DNA of 64,000 nucleotides from Acidobacteriota bacterium (GTDB lineage: Bacteria; Acidobacteriota; Terriglobia; Acidiferrales; UBA7541), in contig JAKAOH010000001.1 in assembly GCA_021812285.1 (NCBI GenBank), positions 21,299 to 85,298 of the forward strand, given 5' to 3'. This document shows positions 16,775 through 30,261 of this stretch, piece after piece. The notes beneath the pieces are model-generated. The model ran no database searches. It worked only from the letters and a program-made list of their open reading frames with translations, and was not told the origin of the DNA. How positions within the stretch are numbered: position 1 is the first letter of the stretch; each line of letters opens with the position of its first letter. The position numbers were made by a program, and so were the translations under genes.

Positions 16775-17533
16775 CTAGGAGATCGTCTTGCGCATGCGGC
16801 GACGGAACATCAACGCGATACCCAGCAGACCACTGCCAAACAGGCCAAGCGTTGCGGGCTCGGGAACCGTTTCCAGACCATCGGTCAAAGGCGTGAACCA
16901 ATCCACGTGGCCATTAGCGTCCGTTCCATAGGCGAGGAAGACCGTCCCGTAGGGGAAACCTGTGGAACCGCCGCTAAAGCTGAAACTGACGGTCAGGTAG
17001 TTGGTGCCGCTCGATCCGGCGCTGACTCCGGGCAGATTGACCGTGTAGACGGCATAACCCATCGTGCCGGGCACGGTTTGAACCGCGTTAATGTTATTGA
17101 ATTTGTAGTTGTCCACGCTGGATGAGCTAGCGGTGAGCCCCAGGTAGCCGGAAATCAGAGGTCCGGAACTCTGAGTGAACGGGGTTGTGTTCGCGAGATT
17201 CGCAGTCAACGACGTCCCGCCAGGACCCCCGTTGCTCTGGGTGAAATTCACCGAGAAGCTGAGTGGAGAGCTAATGGGATTGGTGCTGGAGAGCGGCACC
17301 AAAATCACCAGCGTGGTGCCGCTAGTCGAGCCGTTGTTGTTGATGGCGATGTTGAACGTGGGATTCGTGCTTCCAATCGTTCCAATATCGAGCGAGAATG
17401 TGGCCGGCGTGCACGCTGTGGGGCTTGGCATCCAGCCCGGTCCACAAATGCCCATCACCTGGGCATGCGCACTTGGGGAACCCACGAAAGCAGCAAAGGC
17501 GCAAAGCAAACCGATCCTTAGAATCTTAGACAC
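16775..17533 (-). CDS. PEP-CTERM sorting domain-containing protein
   Basis: N-terminal signal peptide, C-terminus VPEPATLGLFGSGLLGIALMFRRRMRKTIS; GTG start. Confidence 0.93.
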   Translation of the reverse strand: MSKILRIGLLCAFAAFVGSPSAHAQVMGICGPGWMPSPTACTPATFSLDIGTIGSTNPTFNIAINNNGSTSGTTLVILVPLSSTNPISSPLSFSVNFTQSNGGPGGTSLTANLANTTPFTQSSGPLISGYLGLTASSSSVDNYKFNNINAVQTVPGTMGYAVYTVNLPGVSAGSSGTNYLTVSFSFSGGSTGFPYGTVFLAYGTDANGHVDWFTPLTDGLETVPEPATLGLFGSGLLGIALMFRRRMRKTIS

Positions 17534-17723: not shown

Positions 17724-20063
17724 TTATTTTGTTTTGGCCCGTTTTTCCAGCTCCGTGAGCGTTTCTTCGGCTTGTCGAGTGTTTGCCTGATCGAGTCCCA
17801 GGCGACGGGCTTCGAGGAGGGTTGCGCGCGCTTCGCGCTTTTGACCGGCGGCCGAATAGGCCAATCCGAGATGAAAGCGAAAGACGGCATCGCGCGGCAT
17901 TCTGGCGACTGCTTGCTGAAGCGGAGGGATGGCGAGGGAGGCCATGCCCTTCTTCATGTAAACCCAACCGAGCGTATCGGCGATGGACGGATCGGAAGGT
18001 TCCGAAGCGCGGGCCTGCTGCGCGAAGCCGAGCGCCACGTTCGAATCCTCGCCTTGCTCGATCATGGCGCGCGCAAGCCCGGCTTGGGCCGAAGCAATAC
18101 CGGGAGAACGCTGGAGAGCGCGCTGGTAATAATCCTGTGCGTCGGCCCAGCGATTGAGCTGAAGGGAGAGATTGCCAGCGAGCAATTCAGACTGGGAGTC
18201 CTTGGCGTCGAGGTTTCCCGCGCGAGCGTAATTTTCAATCGCAAGCTGTCCGTCGCCGCGCAACTGGGCGATGCGGCCGAGGTAGAAATAGGCCGAGGCG
18301 CTTTTCGGATTCAATTGAAGAGCGTGCTGGCAGTCGGTGGTTGCCGTGGCGAGATTGTTCTGAAGAACGTGCAACTGGGCAAGCAGAACAAAAAGCTCGG
18401 CGTTGGCGCCGGGGCCAGCAGCATAGGCATTGACTGTTTGAATGGCTTTTCCCGTCTGCTCTTGTGCCACATAGAGCTGGGCGAGGCCTGCAAGCATGGG
18501 GGTAGGATCCTTCACGCGCGACAACACCGCTTCATATTCCTTTTCGGCCTTGGCGTAATCCCTGCGCATGCCGTCGACGACAGCCTGACGCACCTGGATG
18601 GCGAGGGATCCGGGCGAGAGTTGGCTGGCGACGAACAGCGCTTTTTGCGCGCGAGAAGTATCGCCGCTCAGGATGGCGGCGTCTGCCGCAAGCAGGTACC
18701 CTGCGACCATAGAGGGATCGAGCAGCAGGACTTGGCGAGCATAATGAGCAGCGCCGACGGCATCCTTGGCGCGCAAACTGAGCTGGCCCAACTGGAGGAA
18801 TGCGAAGGAGAAGGAGGGGTCCATCTTGAGGCACTGGTAAAACTCCGATTGCGCCGAATCGTCTTTACCAAGCGCCATCAGCGAGACGCCCAGATAGTAG
18901 TGGCCGAAGACGGAGGCGGAACCGCCTTCGAGGGCCTTGCGGAGTTGCTCGACGGCGTCAGCGTCGCGTCCCTGGAGGTGAGTGATCGCTCCGGCGAACA
19001 TCAACGCTTGGCGGTCCTTGGGATTCTGGCTGAGGATTTGTTGATTCCAGCGAATCGCATCGGGAACGTCATTCATGGTGATATAGACGTTCACGAATTT
19101 TTTCTTGAGCAGGAGCGAGGGAGAGAGGGAATAGGCGATGCGATATTCGGCGAGGGCGCTCGGGAGTTGATTGTGGGCGACCCAGAAATCGCCGACGCCG
19201 GAGTGCAGATCGGCGGTGGATTTCTGCTTTGCCTCGAAGTTGGCGATGGTGGCCTGGGCGTCGGCAACGCGCCCCCAGCGGCAGTAGAGATCGGCCATCG
19301 CCAGGTAGAGCGCGGGCGCGCCGGAGGTGGCCTTGAGTCCCTGCCGCAACGTCTGTTCGGCCGGTTGGAACTGACCGAGTTTTTGATGCAGGTTGGCGAG
19401 GTCGCGATAGCCATCGACGGAGGTGGGATCGAGGGCGAGCGCATGTTCGAAAGAGGTGGCGGCAGAGGCCGTATCACCATTCCCGAGTTGCGCAATGCCG
19501 ATGGCCAGCTGAAGGGGAGCTTCGCGGGGACGGAGCGCCGTCGCTTTTTCCAACTCGATGAGAGCCTGCGGATAGTTTTTCTGGGCGAGGTAGCTCTGCG
19601 CGACGAGTAATTGCGCGGAGAAATTTTTCGGCTCGCGCGACAGAACCTCGGAAGCGTATTGGCGAGCGCGGTCGGGATGATTACCGATCAGGTAGAGATT
19701 GCCGAGTTCGAGTTCGGCGGGAGCCTGCTGGGGATTGATGTCAAGCGAATGAGTGAACGCCTGCAAGGAAGCCTGTAAATCCCCGCGCTGTTTTTGTGTG
19801 AGGCCGAGGTAGTAATAACCCTCCGTGAAGCGGGGATCGGCCTTGACAGCGTTTTTGAACTCGATCGCCGCATCGTCGTATTTTTTCTCCTGGTAATACT
19901 TCTTGCCGTTTTCGAAATAGGAGTTGCGCCGCTGAATCGGGTCCTGGTTGCACCCGGCCAGAACGCCGGCGAACAGCACCAGCAGAATAGGCCCGAACAG
20001 CAAACAAGAATCCTTGTGTTGCGCTCGCATCCATGATTGCGCCATAGAACCCCTCGTTTCCAT
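17724..20063 (-). CDS. XrtA/PEP-CTERM system TPR-repeat lipoprotein (PrsT-like)
   Basis: 779 aa; lipobox LFAGVLAGC, about 20 TPR-like repeats, position in exosortase cluster. Confidence 0.87.
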   Translation of the reverse strand: METRGSMAQSWMRAQHKDSCLLFGPILLVLFAGVLAGCNQDPIQRRNSYFENGKKYYQEKKYDDAAIEFKNAVKADPRFTEGYYYLGLTQKQRGDLQASLQAFTHSLDINPQQAPAELELGNLYLIGNHPDRARQYASEVLSREPKNFSAQLLVAQSYLAQKNYPQALIELEKATALRPREAPLQLAIGIAQLGNGDTASAATSFEHALALDPTSVDGYRDLANLHQKLGQFQPAEQTLRQGLKATSGAPALYLAMADLYCRWGRVADAQATIANFEAKQKSTADLHSGVGDFWVAHNQLPSALAEYRIAYSLSPSLLLKKKFVNVYITMNDVPDAIRWNQQILSQNPKDRQALMFAGAITHLQGRDADAVEQLRKALEGGSASVFGHYYLGVSLMALGKDDSAQSEFYQCLKMDPSFSFAFLQLGQLSLRAKDAVGAAHYARQVLLLDPSMVAGYLLAADAAILSGDTSRAQKALFVASQLSPGSLAIQVRQAVVDGMRRDYAKAEKEYEAVLSRVKDPTPMLAGLAQLYVAQEQTGKAIQTVNAYAAGPGANAELFVLLAQLHVLQNNLATATTDCQHALQLNPKSASAYFYLGRIAQLRGDGQLAIENYARAGNLDAKDSQSELLAGNLSLQLNRWADAQDYYQRALQRSPGIASAQAGLARAMIEQGEDSNVALGFAQQARASEPSDPSIADTLGWVYMKKGMASLAIPPLQQAVARMPRDAVFRFHLGLAYSAAGQKREARATLLEARRLGLDQANTRQAEETLTELEKRAKTK

Positions 20064-20143
20064 ACCTCCAGCGGCTGGCCAGCCCCGGTATGCCTAACGC
20101 GGCCAAGCGAATATTTCCTCGCCGGCCGTTTAGCCAAACGGAG

Positions 20144-20159
20144 AGCAATTGGCGTTCCA
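20144..20159 (-). promoter_or_regulatory. Sigma54 (RpoN) -24/-12 promoter upstream of the TPR lipoprotein gene
   Basis: Minus strand TGGAACGCCAATTGCT versus consensus TGGCACGN4TTGCW: one mismatch, GG-N10-GC spacing exact; about 80 nt upstream of the ATG at 20063. Confidence 0.65.
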
Positions 20160-20360
20160 CGATCGGCGGAGGATCCCTACTTGTAGAAGAACGCTTTGGC
20201 TGAGGGGCAGGTGCGCGGCGCACCGCAGGTTCCTGCAACGGGCTGGGTAGAAAACGGAAATACTTTTCCACTTTGTGGCTTGCGTTCACCCTGGGCGAGG
20301 ATGATCGCGAAAACGAGCGAGGGATGCAATATTCGCCGAAATACATTTCGTGAGCGCCGA

Positions 20361-21029
20361 TCACGGAAGGTACGAATGCAGCAGAGGCAGCACCTGATAG
20401 GCGAAACCGACAATTCGTTGCTGTGCGATCGCCGGCGTTTCCATTTCGCCGATGGGAGTGGCGAAGCGTATCAGCGCACCGTCGGTGCGGTCATCGCGAA
20501 ACGCGCCGGCGACCAGAAAGAACTTGGCCCAGTACTCGCTGGCGACGGGACGGCCCTGCTCCTGAAACCAGTAGAAAACGAGCATGCGATCGAGACCCTT
20601 GGCGATCAGGTAGCGATTCACCGGGAACGATTTTCCGCCGGGAACGGCCAGCGACACCTGGCTCGAAGTGATCGGCGTCCAGCCGCCTCCGGGAAGGCAA
20701 TTTTTAGGAGAGTGCATCGTGTCGCCAGCTCGCTGGCTGGGGAAATAGGCGAGGAAGAGATCAACCGGCTGCGACGAGCCGAGGCGGGAATAGAGGCGCT
20801 CGATAAATTCGCCCGGTCCGAGAACGGCGCGAATATCCCCAGGAATCGGAATCGTCTGGCCGGCCCAGCCTTGAATTTCTCCAGGGAACTTCGCGAGCGG
20901 GCGGCGTTCCGGTACTCGCACGCCGGAACCCCGCAACTGCAAGAAGAGGCCGGTGGCAGCCAGCAAGGCGACCGCCAGCGAGAAACGCAGACGGAAGCCA
21001 AGGCTCGATTTGACGTGGGCATCAGGCAT
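20361..21029 (-). CDS. epsI: Exosortase-associated protein EpsI
   Basis: YFPSQRAGDTMHSPKNCLPGGGWTPI and LVFYWFQEQGRPVASEYWAKF motifs; directly follows the exosortase gene with 8-bp overlap. Confidence 0.9.
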   Translation of the reverse strand: MPDAHVKSSLGFRLRFSLAVALLAATGLFLQLRGSGVRVPERRPLAKFPGEIQGWAGQTIPIPGDIRAVLGPGEFIERLYSRLGSSQPVDLFLAYFPSQRAGDTMHSPKNCLPGGGWTPITSSQVSLAVPGGKSFPVNRYLIAKGLDRMLVFYWFQEQGRPVASEYWAKFFLVAGAFRDDRTDGALIRFATPIGEMETPAIAQQRIVGFAYQVLPLLHSYLP

Positions 21030-21921
21030 AGGAACGGCGAGACGTGACGGCGCGCAAGGCGGCGTGGAACGCGAAGAGCATCAACATCGCCAGCACGAAA
21101 ATCAACCAGCCGGAAAACGCGTGAAAGAAACCGGTGCCTGCGTCGGGACTCCAGAATTGAACCAGGAGTCCAGTTCCCATAATGCGGAGGGCGTTGGCGG
21201 CGATGGCGATCGGCACGGCGGCGGCGACAAGAACGAGCCGGCGCCAGAGGGAGGGTTCGAGAAAGTAGCCGTAAATCACGGCCAGAGAGATGAGGGAAAT
21301 CAACGATCGGATTCCGCTGCAGGCTTCGGCGACCTCGAGCGTGATGGCGGGAAGCTGAATGATATTTCCCTCGCGCAGCACTGGAACGCCCAAAAGCGCG
21401 AGAAACCAACTGGCCATGCGCGAGGCGTGAATCTGCAAGGGAAGCGTGATTTGCGCGTAGAGAATGGCCGGGATGGGAATCATCAGAAAAAGGAAGGCGA
21501 TCGGAAAGAGAAGTTCGCGAAGCCAACGCCAGCCGCAAAAATAGAGCGTGAGACTGGCGAGCAAGAACACGAACGAACTGCGCATAAGGAAGAATTCCGC
21601 GCCCACCTTTCCGACGACGAGAACGCCGAGGGACGCCGCGATTGCCGGCAATCCCCACCAGGTGGGCAGGAGCGGCAAGCGCGAGAGAGCAGCCCTTTTC
21701 CGCCAGACGAGAAAACCCGAAAACAAGGGCACCAGAAATCCGTGGGAATAATTCGGATCGTTCATCCAGTCGCCGACAAGCGAAACGAGGATTCCACCGT
21801 AAAGGATGCCCACGAGCAGGGCCAGAATCCCGAGAGCCAAAGCGATGTTTGCGGAGACGGAGACAGTCCTCGCTCGAGCCGGGTGTGTTTCGCTCGACGG
21901 TGAGGCGACACAATCTCCCAT
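21022..21921 (-). CDS. xrtA: Exosortase (EpsH/XrtA type)
   Basis: Multi-TM protein with EACSGIRSLI (Cys), ANALRI (Arg) and FFHAFSGW (His) catalytic motifs. Confidence 0.93.
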   Translation of the reverse strand: MGDCVASPSSETHPARARTVSVSANIALALGILALLVGILYGGILVSLVGDWMNDPNYSHGFLVPLFSGFLVWRKRAALSRLPLLPTWWGLPAIAASLGVLVVGKVGAEFFLMRSSFVFLLASLTLYFCGWRWLRELLFPIAFLFLMIPIPAILYAQITLPLQIHASRMASWFLALLGVPVLREGNIIQLPAITLEVAEACSGIRSLISLISLAVIYGYFLEPSLWRRLVLVAAAVPIAIAANALRIMGTGLLVQFWSPDAGTGFFHAFSGWLIFVLAMLMLFAFHAALRAVTSRRSYA

Positions 21922-22240
21922 CCGAACACCTCCCGTTGGAGTCTGTGGTGCAAATTGTCTGCCAGCTTTCCATGGCAGCCGCGAAGCAGAGCGGCGAAGT
22001 GAGGCTAACCTTCGACTCGACAGCGTATTCCAGAGGAAATCGTGAGAAGCGAGCGGGGCTTTCGGCGACCGGTGCGAGCGCGACGGGAAGGAAGCGATGC
22101 GGCAAAGTTAGGAAAACGATTGCCACTTTGCTGAATCGGGCGTGGATTCCGAGAGGCGGCAATTGGAGGCGGGCGCTTCGCGATGAGACGGACCCAACTG
22201 GTTGAGAAAGAAGCTGTAAGACGGCGAAGCGGGCAAGGCT

Positions 22241-23260
22241 TTGGCAATGGCCGTTTTCGTGCACGGCTGCAGGAAAGAATCAACGGCAACGCCGATGAAC
22301 GAAAACGAAACGTTTTTTTCACGCCCAGAACCGAGGCCGACACGCGAACCTGCAAGGCCGGCGTTTCTCGCTTCGCTCAGCCCGGCGATGCGCGAACTTG
22401 ATCGCGCCATCAGCGATGTGGCGCGCGGCGACCTGCCAGTGCTGCTGTTGGGAGAACGAGGGACGGGGAAGGAAATCGTCGCGCGCGAGATCCATCGGCG
22501 GCACGCCGAGGTGAATGCGACGTTTCTGAAGGCGCGCTGCGCGGAGTTGACGCCGCGGCTGATAGACGGGCTTTTGGATGAACCCGGGCGATTTGCGGAC
22601 GCGCCGGCGACGATTTTTCTGGACGAAATCGGCGAGTTGAGTCCAGCGTGCCAGGCCGCGCTGGCGGAAGCGATAGCGAACGCCGACGGGAACGGACACG
22701 TGCGGAACGGACGGGCGCGATTGATCTCCGCGACGAGCCGGAACATCGAGGAAGAGATCCGAAAACAGCATTTTCGCGAAGAGCTTCTCTATCGGCTGAA
22801 CGGCGTGTGCCTGCGCGTTCCTCCCCTGCGGCACCGCAAGGAAGACATCCCGGCATTTCTCGATTTCTTTCTGAAGCGCGACGCCGGAGAGTTGGGCATC
22901 GCGCCTGCCGAGGTGCAGGGGAAGACGATCGCGGCACTGCTGCGGCATTCTTGGCCAGGAAACGTTCGCGAGTTGGAAGAGGTGGCGCGGAAGATTCTGC
23001 TTTCCGACGAGCGCAGCGCGGTGGCGGGACTCGACTGCTTGCGGGCGAGCGTGGCGGACGGAGGCGACGGGGGTGCGGCGCTGCCGCTGAAGGAAGCGGC
23101 GCGGAACGCTTCGCGGCAAGTGGAGCGGGAACTGATCCTGAAGACGCTTTCGCGAACGCGCTGGAACCGGAAACGGGCGGCGCGCGAACTCGGCATCAGC
23201 TACAAGGCGCTTCTGTACAAGCTGAAGCAGATTGCTTTTGACGACCACGGGGAACTTTAG
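22241..23260 (+). CDS. AAA+ bEBP-like regulator with Fis-type HTH, no receiver domain, GAFTGA loop absent
   Basis: GERGTGKE Walker A, TIFLDEIGEL Walker B, SATSRNIEEE, WPGNVRELEEVARK, C-terminal RWNRKRAARELGISYKALLYKLKQ; start may be ATG near 22295. Confidence 0.9.
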   Translation: MAMAVFVHGCRKESTATPMNENETFFSRPEPRPTREPARPAFLASLSPAMRELDRAISDVARGDLPVLLLGERGTGKEIVAREIHRRHAEVNATFLKARCAELTPRLIDGLLDEPGRFADAPATIFLDEIGELSPACQAALAEAIANADGNGHVRNGRARLISATSRNIEEEIRKQHFREELLYRLNGVCLRVPPLRHRKEDIPAFLDFFLKRDAGELGIAPAEVQGKTIAALLRHSWPGNVRELEEVARKILLSDERSAVAGLDCLRASVADGGDGGAALPLKEAARNASRQVERELILKTLSRTRWNRKRAARELGISYKALLYKLKQIAFDDHGEL

Positions 23261-23275
23261 GACGAGGGAGGGCCT

Positions 23276-23911
23276 ATGAATATCCGATTTGGAAAGCGAG
23301 CATCTCTTTGTTGCGTTCTCCTTCTGTTTTTCACGCTTCCCGTGGTGAGCCAAAAAAAGGCGGCCAACTCACACGACGAAACCGCCAAGTCGTCCGTCCA
23401 AAACCATCCCGCTCCGGCGACCACCGATCCGAAATACGTCATCGGGCCGCAGGACGTACTCGATATCAACGTCTGGAACCAATCGAACATTTCGCGGACG
23501 GTGCCGGTGCGCCCAGACGGGAAGATTTCGTTGCCGCTGCTGGACGACGTAATGGCGGCGGGACTGACGCCGGAGCAACTGGGCGAGAAGATCACCCGGG
23601 ATCTGCGGAAGTATCTGGAGAATCCGCAAGTGACGGTGATCGTGACGGCGATCAATAGCCAACGCATTTTCATTGTGGGTGAAGTGGGTCGAGCCGGCAT
23701 TTTGCCCATGCTTCCGAACATGACCGTCTTGCAAGCACTTTCCGAAGCGGGGGGGTTTTCGCCATTCGCGAAACTATCGGGCATTTACGTTCTGCGGAAT
23801 GAGAACGGGCACCAGGTGAAGTTCCCCTTCGATTACAAGAAGGTTATCAAGGGAGAACAGGCGCAAGAGAACCTGGTGTTGCAGCCGGGCGACACAATCG
23901 TCGTTCCATGA
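23276..23911 (+). CDS. Polysaccharide export protein (Wza/KpsD-like, SLBB)
   Basis: YVIGPQDVLDINVWNQSNISRTVPVRPDGKISLPLLDDVMAAGLTPEQL; IFIVGEVGRAG; LQPGDTIVVP. Confidence 0.93.
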   Translation: MNIRFGKRASLCCVLLLFFTLPVVSQKKAANSHDETAKSSVQNHPAPATTDPKYVIGPQDVLDINVWNQSNISRTVPVRPDGKISLPLLDDVMAAGLTPEQLGEKITRDLRKYLENPQVTVIVTAINSQRIFIVGEVGRAGILPMLPNMTVLQALSEAGGFSPFAKLSGIYVLRNENGHQVKFPFDYKKVIKGEQAQENLVLQPGDTIVVP

Positions 23912-23921
23912 GGCATCAGCC

Positions 23922-25430
23922 ATGAAGAGACCAGTGTTTATCGCCGTCTTGCTTGCTGGGGCGCTCCTGCTGTGCGCGTCGGCGGGGTGGGCGCAACAGC
24001 AGCAGGGACAAACGCAGACGTCCGGCCAGCAAAACCAGCAAGGAGCGACGGGACAAAGCGGAACGGCGCCGCCGACGACCGTGACGCCGACGCCCCCCGG
24101 ACAAAATTCGACTCAGCAAGGGGAAACCGTCCAGAGCCAGACATCGAATTCGGCCTCGGGCACTGCCGCAACTACCCCTCCGCTTACCGGGGCGGAGCAA
24201 TACACCCTTAGCCGGATGGGTGCGGGACACAGCTATGTGATTCCATCGTTACAATTCGCGCAGAGCGTGAGCACGTATGGAACGGGAGCCTTCGGGACGT
24301 CCACGGTTGACTCCGTCAGCACGCTCAGCGGCAGCCTTGACCTGAATTACCTGTGGGGCAAATACGCATTCAGCGCGCGATACGACGGAACCGGTTTTGT
24401 GTACAACCAACAGTCGCAGTACAACAATTCGGCGCACCTGTTGACGTTGTCGCAACGGGTGATGGGGAGGCGATCTTTGTTTCTGTTTAGCGATGCGGTG
24501 TCGTACCTGCCGGAAGCGTCCTTCGGCTACTCCCGTTTCAACGGCACAGGTTCCAATATCTACAGCTATGGGGGTTTGTTCGGTTCTGGCATCTCCAATA
24601 TCGATACAAGTTTTCTTCCCAGTCAATCCATTTTAACCGGGTCTTCCTCTCGGGTCAGCAATTCGGTTGTCGGTCAGTATGATTACCTCCTGAGTCCGCT
24701 ATCCACGCTGACGCTGACAGGAGCATATTCTCTGCTTCGATTCCCTTCTTCCGATTACTTCGATAGTGACGATATTATTGCTCAGCTGGGTTACAACCGT
24801 AGTCTAACGGCAAAAAATAGTATGGCAGTGTCTTACCAGGCCAGTTTTTTTCGTTATAGCCAGGGTCTGGGCAACTTTACCGACCACGTTGTAGAAATAA
24901 CTTTTCGTCGCGCCCTTTCGAATCGCATGGGTGTGCAAATCGGCGCAGGACCGCAGGCCAATATATTCAGCAACGGCGCCAGCGGGCAGGATGCCAAATT
25001 CGGGTGGGCGATGAATTCCGAGTTGACGTATTCCTTCCGTCGTTATCAGTTCGCGGCATCGTATCACCATTATACGAACGGCGGTTCGGGCGTCTATCAG
25101 GGAGCCACGACAGACTACGTGGACGCTGATGTCGGGACCCCGCTATCCCATATGTGGACGCTAAACGTTGATCTCGGATACGCCCGTAACTCAAACTTGC
25201 AACAGAACTCCTCCAACAACACACGCGTGTACAACGCATGGTACGGCACCGTCAATCTGCAGCGTCTCCTGAATCGGTGGATGACCATGTTTCTCAGCTA
25301 CAACCTGCAGCAACAGCTTGCGCCGGCGTTCACCTGCGTAGGCTCAACATGCGGAACCTTTTACACACAGCAGTACTTTTCGTTCGGTCTTAACTGGCAC
25401 CCGAGTCGAATGAGCGAAGAAGCCTACTAA
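23922..25430 (+). CDS. Outer-membrane beta-barrel protein of the exosortase/EPS locus
   Basis: Signal peptide, low-complexity Q/T/S-rich linker, alternating aromatic beta-strand pattern, C-terminal FGLNWHPSRMSEEAY. Confidence 0.75.
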   Translation: MKRPVFIAVLLAGALLLCASAGWAQQQQGQTQTSGQQNQQGATGQSGTAPPTTVTPTPPGQNSTQQGETVQSQTSNSASGTAATTPPLTGAEQYTLSRMGAGHSYVIPSLQFAQSVSTYGTGAFGTSTVDSVSTLSGSLDLNYLWGKYAFSARYDGTGFVYNQQSQYNNSAHLLTLSQRVMGRRSLFLFSDAVSYLPEASFGYSRFNGTGSNIYSYGGLFGSGISNIDTSFLPSQSILTGSSSRVSNSVVGQYDYLLSPLSTLTLTGAYSLLRFPSSDYFDSDDIIAQLGYNRSLTAKNSMAVSYQASFFRYSQGLGNFTDHVVEITFRRALSNRMGVQIGAGPQANIFSNGASGQDAKFGWAMNSELTYSFRRYQFAASYHHYTNGGSGVYQGATTDYVDADVGTPLSHMWTLNVDLGYARNSNLQQNSSNNTRVYNAWYGTVNLQRLLNRWMTMFLSYNLQQQLAPAFTCVGSTCGTFYTQQYFSFGLNWHPSRMSEEAY

Positions 25431-25448: not shown

Positions 25449-26987
25449 ATGTTGGGACATCGCGAACTGACAGTTGACGACTATTTGGATATTCTCCGCC
25501 GGCGCTATTGGATTTTGTTGATCACGGTGATTATAGGCGCGGCTGGCCTGTATCTCCTCTCGCGAATACTGCCAAATCAGTACGAATCACGGACAATCGT
25601 GTTGGTGCAACAACCCAAGGTGGGCAAGCAATTCGTTGCCCCAGTCGTGAACGAGCAGATCAACCAGCGCTTGGAAAGCATGCGTGAACAGGTTCTCAGC
25701 ACCGGCCAACTCGTGCCCATTGTTGAAGAAAATCACCTCTTCTCCAAGGAGATGCCGGCCGCTACAGTTGCCGCTCGTGCGCTCCGGTTGCGCAAGGCCA
25801 TAACCGTGACGCCCGTTCAGCCGATGGTGGACTCGCCCTGGGCGGGAATCCCCGGGTTCATGATCGCGGTCACCTTGAACAATCCAGCTGTGGCGCAACA
25901 GGTATGTGCGGAAATCGCCTCACAATTCATCGGCGAGAACGCGCGTTGGCGCTCTCAGGTTGCCCAGGACACCACGGAGTTTCTATCGAAGCAAATTGAC
26001 GAAGCCAAAAGCGCGCTTGACGAGCAGGATGCGAAGCTGACGGCTTTCAAGATGCGTTACCTAGGCAGGCTTCCTGACGAAGTGGAAACCAATATGCACT
26101 TGCTGGCCTCCTACAACTCCCAACTCGCCGCCGCGACGGATTCTCTCAATCGAATACAGCAGGACAAGGTCTACCTCGAATCGCAGTTGAACCAGCAATT
26201 GGCCGCGTGGAAAGCCACCCGTTCGGGAAGCAACCTATTGATTCTAGAGCAGCAGCTCGCTGACTTGCGAAACAAGCTGGTATTGATGCGAGCGCAATAC
26301 ACAGACGATTACCCGGATGTCATAAAACTCAAGCAGAACATTGCCCATTTGGAGAGAAAGGTAAGCGAGGCGAAAGCCGAGACGTCGTGGAGCACGGCGG
26401 CAGGCAAGGCAGAAGGGCCTGCCTACGCCGAGCCTCCTCAGATTCAGCAGCTACGCGGACAATTGCGTCAGTACAACGAGACCATTCGGGAGAAAACGAA
26501 AGAACAAGCCACTCTTCAAAGGGAGATTCAAGACTACCAGTCTCGGGTGCAATTGAGCCCACTGATTGAAGAACAATTCACCGAATTGACGCGGAACTAT
26601 CAAACAGCGCTCGAATTCTATCGGAACCTCTTGACCAAAAAGGCCCAAGCGGACATGGGAGCTGACCTGGAGCGGCGTCAACAGGGCGAAGATTTTCGCG
26701 TCATCGATCCTGCCACCTTTCCTGCCGCACCGTCTTTTCCAAATCCCCTGCTCTTTGCAGGCGGAGGGGCATTCGGAGGGCTGTGTCTGGGGATCGCGAT
26801 AGCTCTTTGGCTGGAGTTGCGTGACAAGCTCATTCGGACCGAGCGCGACGTGGAATTCTATCTCGATGTGCCAACGCTGGCGCTGGTGCCGATGTTGGGC
26901 AAGACGCGGCACGGGGAAGGCTGGCGGCGAATTCCGCGATTGCCGTCAAGAGAGACGGCAGCAAACGCAAGAGCACTTGACGTATAG
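25449..26987 (+). CDS. Wzz/Wzc-type polysaccharide chain-length determinant protein
   Basis: LTVDDYLDILRRRYWILLITVIIGAAGLYLL N-terminus, coiled coil, C-terminal TM FAGGGAFGGLCLGIAIALWLEL. Confidence 0.9.
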   Translation: MLGHRELTVDDYLDILRRRYWILLITVIIGAAGLYLLSRILPNQYESRTIVLVQQPKVGKQFVAPVVNEQINQRLESMREQVLSTGQLVPIVEENHLFSKEMPAATVAARALRLRKAITVTPVQPMVDSPWAGIPGFMIAVTLNNPAVAQQVCAEIASQFIGENARWRSQVAQDTTEFLSKQIDEAKSALDEQDAKLTAFKMRYLGRLPDEVETNMHLLASYNSQLAAATDSLNRIQQDKVYLESQLNQQLAAWKATRSGSNLLILEQQLADLRNKLVLMRAQYTDDYPDVIKLKQNIAHLERKVSEAKAETSWSTAAGKAEGPAYAEPPQIQQLRGQLRQYNETIREKTKEQATLQREIQDYQSRVQLSPLIEEQFTELTRNYQTALEFYRNLLTKKAQADMGADLERRQQGEDFRVIDPATFPAAPSFPNPLLFAGGGAFGGLCLGIAIALWLELRDKLIRTERDVEFYLDVPTLALVPMLGKTRHGEGWRRIPRLPSRETAANARALDV

Positions 26988-26999
26988 GGAAACCAGCCC

Positions 27000-27953
27000 A
27001 TGTTCCAGAATTTTTTTCAACTGCAGGCGAATCCCTTCGGCACAAATCCTGACCCGCGCTACCTGTTTTTGACGCGGGACGCGCAGGAGGCGTTGGCATG
27101 CCTCACCTACGGGATCCAGGCGCGGAAGGGATTCATCGTGCTGACCGGAGAGGTCGGCACGGGGAAGACGACGCTGCTCAACAAGCTGCTCGAGTGGCTG
27201 CACGGGTACCGGATGGCGACAGCGTTCCTCTTCAATTCCTCGCTGACGGTGCCGGAGTTCCTGGATTTCATGATGGCGGATTTCGGCATCGCCTGCGAAT
27301 CGCCATTGAAAAGCCAGATTCTGTTGCGGCTGAACCGGTGGCTGCTGGAGCGCTATCGCGCGGGCGAGGCGGCGGTATTGATCGTGGACGAAGCCCAGAA
27401 CCTTTCCCGGGAAGTGCTCGAGGAAATCCGGCAACTGACGAACCTGGAGACGTCCACGGAGAAGCTGCTGCAGATCGTGCTGTCGGGCCAGCCGGAACTC
27501 GAGGCGATGCTGAAGCAGCCGCAACTACGGCAACTGCGGCAACGGGTGAATCTGCGCGCGACGCTCCACCCGCTGACGATCGAGGAAGCGCGGGGATACG
27601 TGACCGAACGGCTGCGCGTGGCCGGCGCGAATGGGCAGGAGATTTTCGCGCCCGAGGCGATCGAGAAAATGCACGCGTGCTCGTGCGGGATTCCGCGGCT
27701 GATGAACCTGGTAGGCGAGCACGCGCTGATCAGCGCGTTCGCCGACCAGGACAAGCGGATCGAAGCGAGCCGGATCGAACAGGTGGCCTGCGACCTGGGA
27801 CTGAATGAAGCCTGGGCGGGAAGCAGAACGAACCGCATCTCCCTTGCCGAGGAACCCGCGACAGAGGACGTACTGCGCCAACTGGCGGCGGCGGTCGAAC
27901 GGATCCGCGGGACACAGCCGGGCCGGCGCGACCCCCGGGAAAGGACGTCATGA
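27000..27953 (+). CDS. ExeA-like AAA ATPase (XrtA-associated)
   Basis: MFQNFFQLQANPFGTNPDPRYLFLTRDAQEALACLTYGIQARKGFIVLTGEVGTGKTTLLNKLL. Confidence 0.93.
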   Translation: MFQNFFQLQANPFGTNPDPRYLFLTRDAQEALACLTYGIQARKGFIVLTGEVGTGKTTLLNKLLEWLHGYRMATAFLFNSSLTVPEFLDFMMADFGIACESPLKSQILLRLNRWLLERYRAGEAAVLIVDEAQNLSREVLEEIRQLTNLETSTEKLLQIVLSGQPELEAMLKQPQLRQLRQRVNLRATLHPLTIEEARGYVTERLRVAGANGQEIFAPEAIEKMHACSCGIPRLMNLVGEHALISAFADQDKRIEASRIEQVACDLGLNEAWAGSRTNRISLAEEPATEDVLRQLAAAVERIRGTQPGRRDPRERTS

Positions 27954-28870
27954 GCCGAATCCATGAGGCTTTGAAACGAGCCGAGGAAGAGAAAATCGCG
28001 CAGGTACGCGTCGAAACCGCCGAGCCCCGACCGGCAAGCGTACCGGAGATCGAACAGCCGGCGGCGCGAGTGCACGCGACGGAAACCGCAGTTGCCCTGG
28101 CGGGCAACGGATTCGCGCTCGAGACGTTGACGTTCGAAGGACTGGCCGGGCGCTGCCAGCAACCCGCATGGAATCCCGACACGAAAACGATGCTGTTCTT
28201 CCGGAAGGACAACCACCAATACGACGCGGAGATTTTCCGGACGCTGCGTTCGCGGCTTTATCGGGCGCGCGACAACGGCTCGCTGCGGAAGCTCCTGGTG
28301 ACGAGCACGCTGCCGGGCGAGGGGAAATCGTTCATCGCGGCGAACCTGGCGCAGGTGATTGCGCAGCAGCACGGGCGGCGGGCGCTGCTGGTGGATGCGG
28401 ACCTGCGGGCGCCACGCCTGCACGCGGTTCTGGGCGCGCCGCAGACGCCGGGCCTGGCCGAATTCCTTCGTGGTGAAGCGGACGAGGCGACGGCGATACA
28501 GAAGGGGCCGCACAACGACCTGTTCTGCCTTCCGAGCGGAAACCTGCCGGCGAATCCGGTCGAATTGATCAGCAATGGGCGGCTGACTCGGCTGCTGGAC
28601 CGGATGGCTTCGATTTTCGACTGGGTGATCGTGGATTCGCCGCCGATGGTTCCGGTTTCCGACGCGAGCCTGCTGGCGAATTTGTGCGACGGAGTGCTGC
28701 TGGTGGTGAAGGCGGCGGCGACTCCGTTTGACTTGGCGCAGAAAGCGCGCGCTGAATTCGGAGACACACCGGTGGTGGGCGTGGTGCTGAACGGAGTGCG
28801 GCGCGGCTCGGGCTACGGAGCGGAATACTACAGCTACTACGGATACCCATCCGAAGAACACAAGGGATAG
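27950..28870 (+). CDS. CpsD/CapB-type tyrosine-protein kinase
   Basis: LLVTSTLPGEGKSFIAANLAQVIAQ, ALLVDADLRAPRLH, DWVIVDSPP, C-terminal Tyr cluster GYGAEYYSYYGYP. Confidence 0.93.
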   Translation: MSRIHEALKRAEEEKIAQVRVETAEPRPASVPEIEQPAARVHATETAVALAGNGFALETLTFEGLAGRCQQPAWNPDTKTMLFFRKDNHQYDAEIFRTLRSRLYRARDNGSLRKLLVTSTLPGEGKSFIAANLAQVIAQQHGRRALLVDADLRAPRLHAVLGAPQTPGLAEFLRGEADEATAIQKGPHNDLFCLPSGNLPANPVELISNGRLTRLLDRMASIFDWVIVDSPPMVPVSDASLLANLCDGVLLVVKAAATPFDLAQKARAEFGDTPVVGVVLNGVRRGSGYGAEYYSYYGYPSEEHKG

Positions 28871-28881
28871 TTGGTCGAATC

Positions 28882-30261
28882 GTGGTCAGACTTTTCCATG
28901 TGTACTATCCGACGCGCACGTTGATTCTGCTGGGCGGAGAGGCGATTCTCGCTCTCGGCGCCTTTCTGCTGGCCACGCTTCTCTGCTTCGGTTCGACGCA
29001 CTTCTATTCGGCGCTGGCGATGAACAGCGGGTTTTACAAGATTCTGTCGATCACCGGGCTGGCCATCCTGTGCCTTTACTATTTCGACCTGTACGATTTG
29101 CACCGGCTGCTGATCCCCGGGGAATCCTTTTTCCGGCTGTTCGCGGGGCTGGGAACGCTTTCCATTCTGCTGGCGTTTTTCGGCTACCTGTTTCCGCAAT
29201 TCATGCTGGGGCGGCAGGTGTACGTTGCCGGGCTGCTGATCCTGACGCTTTATCTGCTCGCGTGGCGAACTCTCTATTCATGGCTGCTGCACAAGCCGTA
29301 CCTGAGCGAGCGAGTGTATGTTCTTGGCAGCGGACCGAGCGCGAGCCGGTTGGTGGACACGCTGCGGCGGCACAACAGCCTAGGAATGGAAGTGGTGGGC
29401 TGGGCGGGAGCGACGGCGACCGGAGCGCTCGATCGGGAGAGTTTGGGCGCCGCGCTCGATGAACTGAGGCAGAAAGGTGCGGTGGACCGCGTGATCGTGG
29501 CGATGCCCGACCGGCGGAACGTGATGCCGGTGAGGGAACTGCTCGATCTGCGGTTGAGCGGCGTCACGGTGGAAGACTCGACGGCGCTGGAGGAGAAGCT
29601 GACCGGAAGGATCGAGATTCGGAGCCTCACCCCCAGTTGGCTGATTTTTTCCGACGGATTCCGTTTGAAGGCGGGCGTGCTCGCTGCGAGAAGAGCGATT
29701 TCCCTAGCCGTATCGCTCACCGCACTGATCCTTACGCTGCCACTCGTTCCCGTCATCGCGGCCGCCGTCAAGCTGTCTTCCGCGGGCCCGGTGTTTTACC
29801 GTCAGAAACGCGTGGGGCGCAACGGAGTGGTGTTTGACTGCTACAAATTCCGCACGATGCGCGCCGACGCCGAGGCGGATACTGGGCCGACTTGGGCTTG
29901 CGATGACGATCCACGCATTACGCGAGTGGGACATTACCTTCGTAAGATGCGGTTGGATGAAATCCCGCAACTGTGGAACGTCCTACGCGGCGACATGAGC
30001 TTTGTTGGTCCGCGCCCGGAACGACCGGAATTTGTCGAATGGTTGAGCAGAGAAATTCCCTACTACACCATGCGGCACGTCGTTCTACCCGGCATTACGG
30101 GCTGGGCTCAGGTGAACTATCCCTACGGCGCATCGCTTGAGGAATCGAAGGAAAAGCTGTGCTACGACCTGTACTACGTGAAGAATATGTCGATTGCTTT
30201 CGACCTGTTAATCATGTTCCAGACGCTGAAGATAGCTTTCCTGGGAAGGGGAAGCCGGTGA
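28882..30261 (+). CDS. Undecaprenyl-phosphate sugar phosphotransferase (EpsB/WbaP-like)
   Basis: GPVFYRQKRVGRNGVVFDCYKFRTMRADAEADTGPTWACDDDPRITRVGHYLRKMRLDEIPQLWNVLRGDMSFVGPRPERPEF. Confidence 0.95.
   Translation: MVRLFHVYYPTRTLILLGGEAILALGAFLLATLLCFGSTHFYSALAMNSGFYKILSITGLAILCLYYFDLYDLHRLLIPGESFFRLFAGLGTLSILLAFFGYLFPQFMLGRQVYVAGLLILTLYLLAWRTLYSWLLHKPYLSERVYVLGSGPSASRLVDTLRRHNSLGMEVVGWAGATATGALDRESLGAALDELRQKGAVDRVIVAMPDRRNVMPVRELLDLRLSGVTVEDSTALEEKLTGRIEIRSLTPSWLIFSDGFRLKAGVLAARRAISLAVSLTALILTLPLVPVIAAAVKLSSAGPVFYRQKRVGRNGVVFDCYKFRTMRADAEADTGPTWACDDDPRITRVGHYLRKMRLDEIPQLWNVLRGDMSFVGPRPERPEFVEWLSREIPYYTMRHVVLPGITGWAQVNYPYGASLEESKEKLCYDLYYVKNMSIAFDLLIMFQTLKIAFLGRGSR

Follow-up and report, generated by a model that had tools for sequence, protein, structure and literature searches.

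At slightly better than even confidence, we read REG-x, the product of the first gene of an exopolysaccharide (EPS) operon at an exosortase locus, as a former σ54 activator that is without the σ54-contacting L1 loop and modulates GAFTGA-bearing paralogues at the enhancers of σ54-dependent promoters. The gene lies in the window, by which we mean the whole 64-kb stretch of DNA that was analyzed, taken from a draft genome of 282 contigs.

The loop-less regulator and its locus

The regulator stands between divergent exosortase and EPS genes, with the following features.

17724-20063, minus strand: PrsT-like TPR protein (TIGR02917, 302 bits, just below the cut-off of 312)
20361-21029, minus strand: EpsI, exosortase-associated (PF11984, TIGR02914)
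21022-21921, minus strand: exosortase of the XrtA type (PF09721; TIGR03109, 222 bits, above the cut-off of 208)
22295-23260, plus strand: REG-x, GAFTGA-less AAA+/Fis regulator of 321 aa, gene 1 of the EPS operon, with orthologues in the same place at 36 loci
22451-22471, plus strand: Walker A of REG-x, GERGTGK, residues 53-59
22541-22621, plus strand: shortened segment Cys82-Asp110 of REG-x, where helix 3/L1 with GAFTGA is expected
22613-22630, plus strand: Walker B of REG-x, IFLDEI, residues 107-112, intact here and broken in many relatives
23114-23230, plus strand: Fis-type HTH of REG-x, residues 274-312, near-invariant WNRKRAAxELxISYKALLYKLKQ
23276-23911, plus strand: polysaccharide export protein (PF02563)
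23922-25430, plus strand: PEP-CTERM-system outer-membrane-like protein (weak TIGR03016 match; syntenic)
25449-26987, plus strand: chain-length determinant (TIGR03007, 227 bits, below the cut-off of 279)
27000-27953, plus strand: XrtA-associated ATPase (TIGR03015, 281 bits, below the cut-off of 324.5)
27950-28870, plus strand: tyrosine autokinase (TIGR01007, above cut-off)
28882-30261, plus strand: EpsB-type sugar transferase (TIGR03013, above cut-off)

Near the exosortase, positions 16775-17533 encode a likely PEP-CTERM substrate protein with the C-terminus VPEPATLGLFGSGLLGIALMFRRRMRK.

A preliminary description of this DNA had given the regulator the span 22241-23260. The protein sequence quoted there was found where it had been placed, but the start is ATG 22295, a protein start conserved across orthologues; TTG 22241 is merely the upper limit of the open reading frame, and a predicted -24/-12 element (22247-22263, see below) falls inside the supposed extension. 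Pfam assigned to REG-x a Sigma54_activat domain (residues 28-172), preceded by about 27 residues, followed by AAA_lid_14 and HTH_8, and, in agreement with the preliminary description, no receiver or sensor domain. In the AlphaFold model (mean pLDDT 77.7) the AAA+ fold is kept and matches ZraR, NtrX, and NtrC1, so by both analyses the protein has the AAA+ and Fis-type HTH domains of a classical σ54 enhancer-binding protein. Walker A, Walker B, and the Arg fingers are all present, and the retention of Walker A, the Arg-finger region, and the Fis HTH was correctly described before; the replacement of the Sensor-I Asn by Ser had been overlooked. Since GAFTGA, the hallmark of the L1 loop in classical σ54 enhancer-binding proteins, is absent, REG-x should not be annotated as a σ54 activator.

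The missing GAFTGA segment, the central claim of the preliminary description, was borne out by the length of the stretch from Cys82 to the Walker-B Asp110, which is 28 residues in REG-x and exactly 42 in 33/33 GAFTGA-bearing relatives, and the loss is common to orthologues. Among motif-less relatives the same stretch varies from 21 to 37 residues, and it therefore looks like a region freed from constraint rather than one clean deletion. We searched 89 genomes of the same family for orthologues (identities 40-82%) and aligned 30 of them, namely, REG-x of the window, a same-genus orthologue (82% identical) that also lacks the motif, and 28 more; GAFTGA was absent from all 30. An assembly or sequencing error, which a draft genome might have invited and which had been named beforehand as a possible refutation, was ruled out as the cause because independent genomes show the same loss, and we give it a negligible probability. 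A single scan of genome contigs for REG-x yielded for the most part canonical GAFTGA proteins; no close orthologue was among them.

We then read 40 loci of ∼19 kb. The arrangement of prsT-epsI-xrtA on the left and regulator-export-omp-wzz-ATPase-kinase-epsB on the right recurred, apart from local gaps and rearrangements, in families f1, f6, and f11. The motif was absent from 36 of 38 syntenic regulators, both exceptions (n = 2) belonging to family f9 and reading ESELFGYEKGSFTGA; the survey of related XrtA loci proposed in the preliminary description thus found the loss in all 36 syntenic loci outside f9. When the L1 columns were left out of the tree, the loop-less proteins grouped into a single clade (SH-aLRT 98), to which the syntenic GSFTGA proteins of f9 were sister (94). 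This topology therefore fits a single loss event, spread across several families of one class and so neither local nor recent, and in a phylum-wide sample of 396 genomes the loop-less form was confined to this class. Gene content and weak named relatives suggest that the class is Terriglobia of the Acidobacteriota. The two f9 regulators that keep GSFTGA (L203, 9208-10131; L204, 916-1863) stand 531-692 bp from the export gene, not in operonic overlap.

Promoter and enhancer-like elements

Our prior expectation was that a -24/-12 signal would be absent from these loci; it was found instead. With a σ54 weight matrix drafted after the published consensus, the top -24/-12 scores in the 150 nt preceding the regulator averaged 9.7 bits, compared to 2.1 ± 0.55 bits in shuffled sequence. 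In a spacing test that needs no matrix, TGG-N9-TGCW occurred upstream of the regulator with a spacing of 9 in 30/39 regions; no other spacing was found in more than 3, with ∼1 expected. Scores upstream of xrtA were also in excess (7.0 versus 1.9); omp, wzz, and the export gene served as controls and showed no upstream excess.

De novo analysis of the regions upstream of the regulators recovered a palindrome, AAGGGAAAAnnnTTTTCCACTTTGT. In leave-one-out scoring, this putative enhancer-like site (UAS) exceeded the null 95% line in 38 of the 39 regions and the 99% line in 34. A GG-N10-GC (-24/-12) element lay 100-175 bp from the palindrome in 36/39 regions, and the distances from the UAS center to the -12 G clustered at 146-153 bp; helical phasing of 10-11 bp was not significant (p 0.07-0.13). 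The window carries the following elements.

20144-20160, minus strand: -24/-12-like element GTGGAACGCCAATTGCT of prsT (11.6 bits; 117.5 bp from UAS2)
20253-20276, plus strand: UAS2, putative, AACGGAAATACTTTTCCACTTTGT, ∼190 nt upstream of prsT (25.0 bits; core 20256-20275 an exact match)
21949-21965, minus strand: predicted -24/-12 σ54-type element CTGGCAGACAATTTGCA of xrtA, 28 nt before the ATG (15.7 bits; conserved in L167)
22108-22131, plus strand: UAS1, putative palindromic enhancer-like site TTAGGAAAACGATTGCCACTTTGC (core 22111-22130 an exact match)
22247-22263, plus strand: predicted -24/-12 σ54-type element ATGGCCGTTTTCGTGCA for REG-x and the EPS operon (142.5 bp away from UAS1; orthologous element in L167)

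UAS1 and UAS2, the latter outside the motif training set, are the only two exact (zero-mismatch) copies in the 3.73-Mb genome, and these two perfect palindromes of a single locus flank the -24/-12 elements of REG-x, xrtA, and prsT. The xrtA element, 167.5 bp from UAS1, is the top-scoring -24/-12 site of the whole window. The REG-x element, at 8.2 bits, is credible from its position and orthology, the score alone being insufficient. Judged by sequence, then, the locus has the arrangement of a σ54 enhancer-binding protein's targets, with UAS upstream of -24/-12 promoters.

A simple scan found no σ70-like promoter in 20040-23300. This genome has RpoN, as do 37 of the 38 related genomes tested; no RpoN match was obtained in one REG-x genome (G044, 97% complete). 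These results bear on the inference made in the preliminary description, part of which stands: REG-x appears to be a derived protein that regulates the EPS/exosortase locus and that is, alone, no classical RpoN activator. The implied departure from the RpoN world is not supported, the promoters being of the -24/-12 type, and neither is the suggested TyrR-like service to other holoenzymes, given these elements beside the presumed operators and their conserved spacing, the result of the σ70 scan, and the presence of RpoN.

Selection, ATPase motifs, and intact paralogues

Six pairs of REG-x sequences gave dN/dS values of 0.08-0.22, the AAA+ domain being as constrained as the HTH, which indicates purifying selection; a pseudogene was rejected on these values. 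The Walker-A Lys was retained in 36/36 REG-x relatives and the Arg fingers in 34/36 and 33/36. In contrast, the Sensor-I Asn was found in 2/36 relatives, versus 30/33 intact proteins, and the Walker-B Asp and Glu in 26/36 and 27/36, respectively. Elements serving a subunit's own ATP thus erode while those reaching the neighboring subunit stay, a pattern expected of a non-catalytic ring member, although no proof of one. REG-x of L188, L189, L190, L191, and L196 has an altered Walker A (AEAGSGK, AERGAGK, or similar) and a broken Walker B, and these proteins are apparent pseudo-ATPases; in the L188/L189 pair, with Walker A and B both broken, the AAA+ domain still has a dN/dS of 0.084, suggesting strong constraint. 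The erosion of Walker A, Walker B, and Sensor I in several lineages could also be taken to mean that REG-x is a decaying remnant without function. We consider this very improbable given the dN/dS values, the intact open frames, and an HTH that is near-invariant across the class.

Two intact paralogues, REG2 (AAA+-HTH) and PASb (PAS-like N terminus-AAA+-HTH, the PAS being judged by eye), both with GAFTGA, are encoded on another contig (C188; L186), where neither has a UAS of its own in this genome. Their recognition helices read ISYRALLYK and ISYKALLYK, compared to ISYKALLYK in REG-x, and most other enhancer-binding proteins of the genome differ. Of the family's 51 REG-x genomes, 47 have PASb; the remaining four are metagenome-assembled genomes that are 55-85% complete. 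Beside REG2 lies a long ORF (L186, 1441-3483) with, by eye, a PilZ-like stretch and a TonB-like C terminus.

UAS-like sites were also found, out of sample, ∼270-285 nt before REG2 at L212 (26.1 bits) and L215 (18.2 bits), both from genomes that have no REG-x, and one of 19.7 bits precedes REG2 in L219, whose genome has REG-x elsewhere. At L212 (10761-12758), L215, L217, and L226, a REG2 with GAFTGA immediately precedes the export gene of a parallel EPS cluster. The Walker-B Glu of REG2 is replaced by Gly in 15/44 REG-x genomes versus 0/28 REG2 from genomes without REG-x (p = 0.03 in a test that counts all non-Glu residues and ignores relatedness), which is only suggestive of a partnership with REG-x. 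REG2 proteins with GAFTGA and a Walker-B DG include those of L231, L232, L234, L241, L243, L250, and others.

Candidate mechanisms and known systems

Open-complex formation by σ54 polymerase requires a GAFTGA-bearing AAA+ protein (PMC7175178), and REG-x should therefore not activate these promoters alone. In the modulator reading that we favor, REG-x would be made as the product of the first gene in the EPS operon, would use its Fis HTH to bind the palindromic UAS, and would assemble there through its AAA+ domain; PASb and/or REG2, with nearly the same recognition helix, would do the activating, and REG-x would modulate it. The likeliest form may be a mixed ring formed by hetero-oligomerization, with DNA anchoring and Arg fingers coming from REG-x and GAFTGA from the paralogue. 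Nearly as likely, it seems, is a negative-feedback brake in the form of a competing homo-oligomer, so that we infer for REG-x an effect that may be that of a co-activator or of a brake. The position of the gene at the head of the operon fits feedback, whether positive or negative, and PASb or REG2, rather than REG-x, could be the main binder of the UAS.

As the main variant of the favored explanation, the brake supposes that REG-x homo-oligomers fill the UAS and block the GAFTGA-bearing paralogues, the operon thereby limiting its own expression. It would make sense of a regulator that heads a σ54-type operon yet cannot contact σ54, and of an operator type and a recognition helix common to REG-x and the intact activators, but a pure blocker would need neither a UAS to -12 distance held at ∼146-153 bp nor a constrained AAA+ domain. 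Taken alone, this variant seems to us rather doubtful, and the conserved spacing and the constrained AAA+ domain make us lean toward the mixed ring. It is unlikely, in our view, that REG-x instead works as a σ70-type regulator like VpsR, Rhodobacter capsulatus NtrC, or TyrR, recruiting or repressing σ70 polymerase from the UAS while the -24/-12 elements serve other activators. The GAFTGA-less relatives characterized in the literature consulted (R. capsulatus and Caulobacter NtrC, VpsR, TyrR, DhaR, and HupR) are described as acting at σ70 promoters (PMC10274813, PMC3162934); by the length of its L1 segment REG-x shares their loss, and VpsR likewise controls a biofilm polysaccharide. The σ70 alternative, however, would require a type of promoter that the scan of 20040-23300 did not find, and both operator sites adjoin -24/-12 elements at a conserved enhancer spacing. 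A bolder extension of the modulator reading, which we consider less likely than not, is that the class-wide loop-less, partly ATPase-dead clade has turned into an obligate, specialized subunit of mixed AAA+ rings at the σ54 promoters of exosortase/exopolysaccharide genes; it would provide operator binding and Arg fingers, and a paralogue would provide GAFTGA and hydrolysis.

Several known systems resemble REG-x in part. VpsR of Vibrio cholerae also regulates an exopolysaccharide locus as an NtrC-family protein without GAFTGA, but it has a receiver-like domain and σ70 promoters, whereas σ54-type promoters neighbor REG-x. NtrC of R. capsulatus and Caulobacter has undergone a comparable lineage-wide loss of L1/GAFTGA; these proteins, unlike REG-x, have receivers and are reported at σ70 promoters, and the Caulobacter deletion is of 8 residues, compared to a segment that is 14 residues shorter in REG-x and variable among its relatives. 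Mixed complexes of enhancer-binding proteins have been described for HrpR/HrpS, FleQ/FleT, and VnfA1/VnfA3 (PMC9542535, PMC11999139). In Cereibacter (Rhodobacter) sphaeroides, the truncated paralogue FleT, made under σ54 control, joins the intact FleQ; FleT is without a DNA-binding domain, whereas REG-x keeps that domain, is without the σ54-contact loop, and would form a mixed complex by inference. VnfA1/VnfA3 and HrpR/HrpS are paralogues that hetero-oligomerize at common target promoters. We know of no member of these two pairs that has lost the GAFTGA segment.

The closest precedent for the locus is the PrsK/PrsR PEP-CTERM system of Proteobacteria, in which motif 1 has TTTACA at its end, ∼63 nt ahead of motif 2 (Haft 2006; PMC1569441). 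Both have an exosortase/EPS locus with PrsT, an NtrC-family regulator, and a UAS-like motif (motif 1) with a -24/-12 element. PrsR, however, has a receiver and a σ54-contacting domain, REG-x is without GAFTGA, and the UAS found here differs from motif 1. REG-x scored 146 bits with the PrsR model TIGR02915, below the cut-off of 502.6, and has no receiver; no protein of this genome exceeded that cut-off.

We found no description in the literature consulted of a loop-less DNA-binding paralogue together with retained σ54 promoters, nothing joining GAFTGA with Acidobacteria, and nothing joining exosortase, Acidobacteria, PEP-CTERM, and exopolysaccharide. GAFTGA-less enhancer-binding proteins are treated there as gone from the σ54 system, GAFTGA serving as a discard filter. 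At REG-x loci, promoters and enhancer spacing appear to have stayed σ54-like after the loop was lost, and the sister lineage f9 keeps the ancestral state; a role as a non-contacting subunit at σ54 promoters is therefore testable. Motif 1 was reported in Proteobacteria only (PMC1569441), and the present elements point to a σ54/UAS regulon for exosortase/EPS genes outside that phylum.
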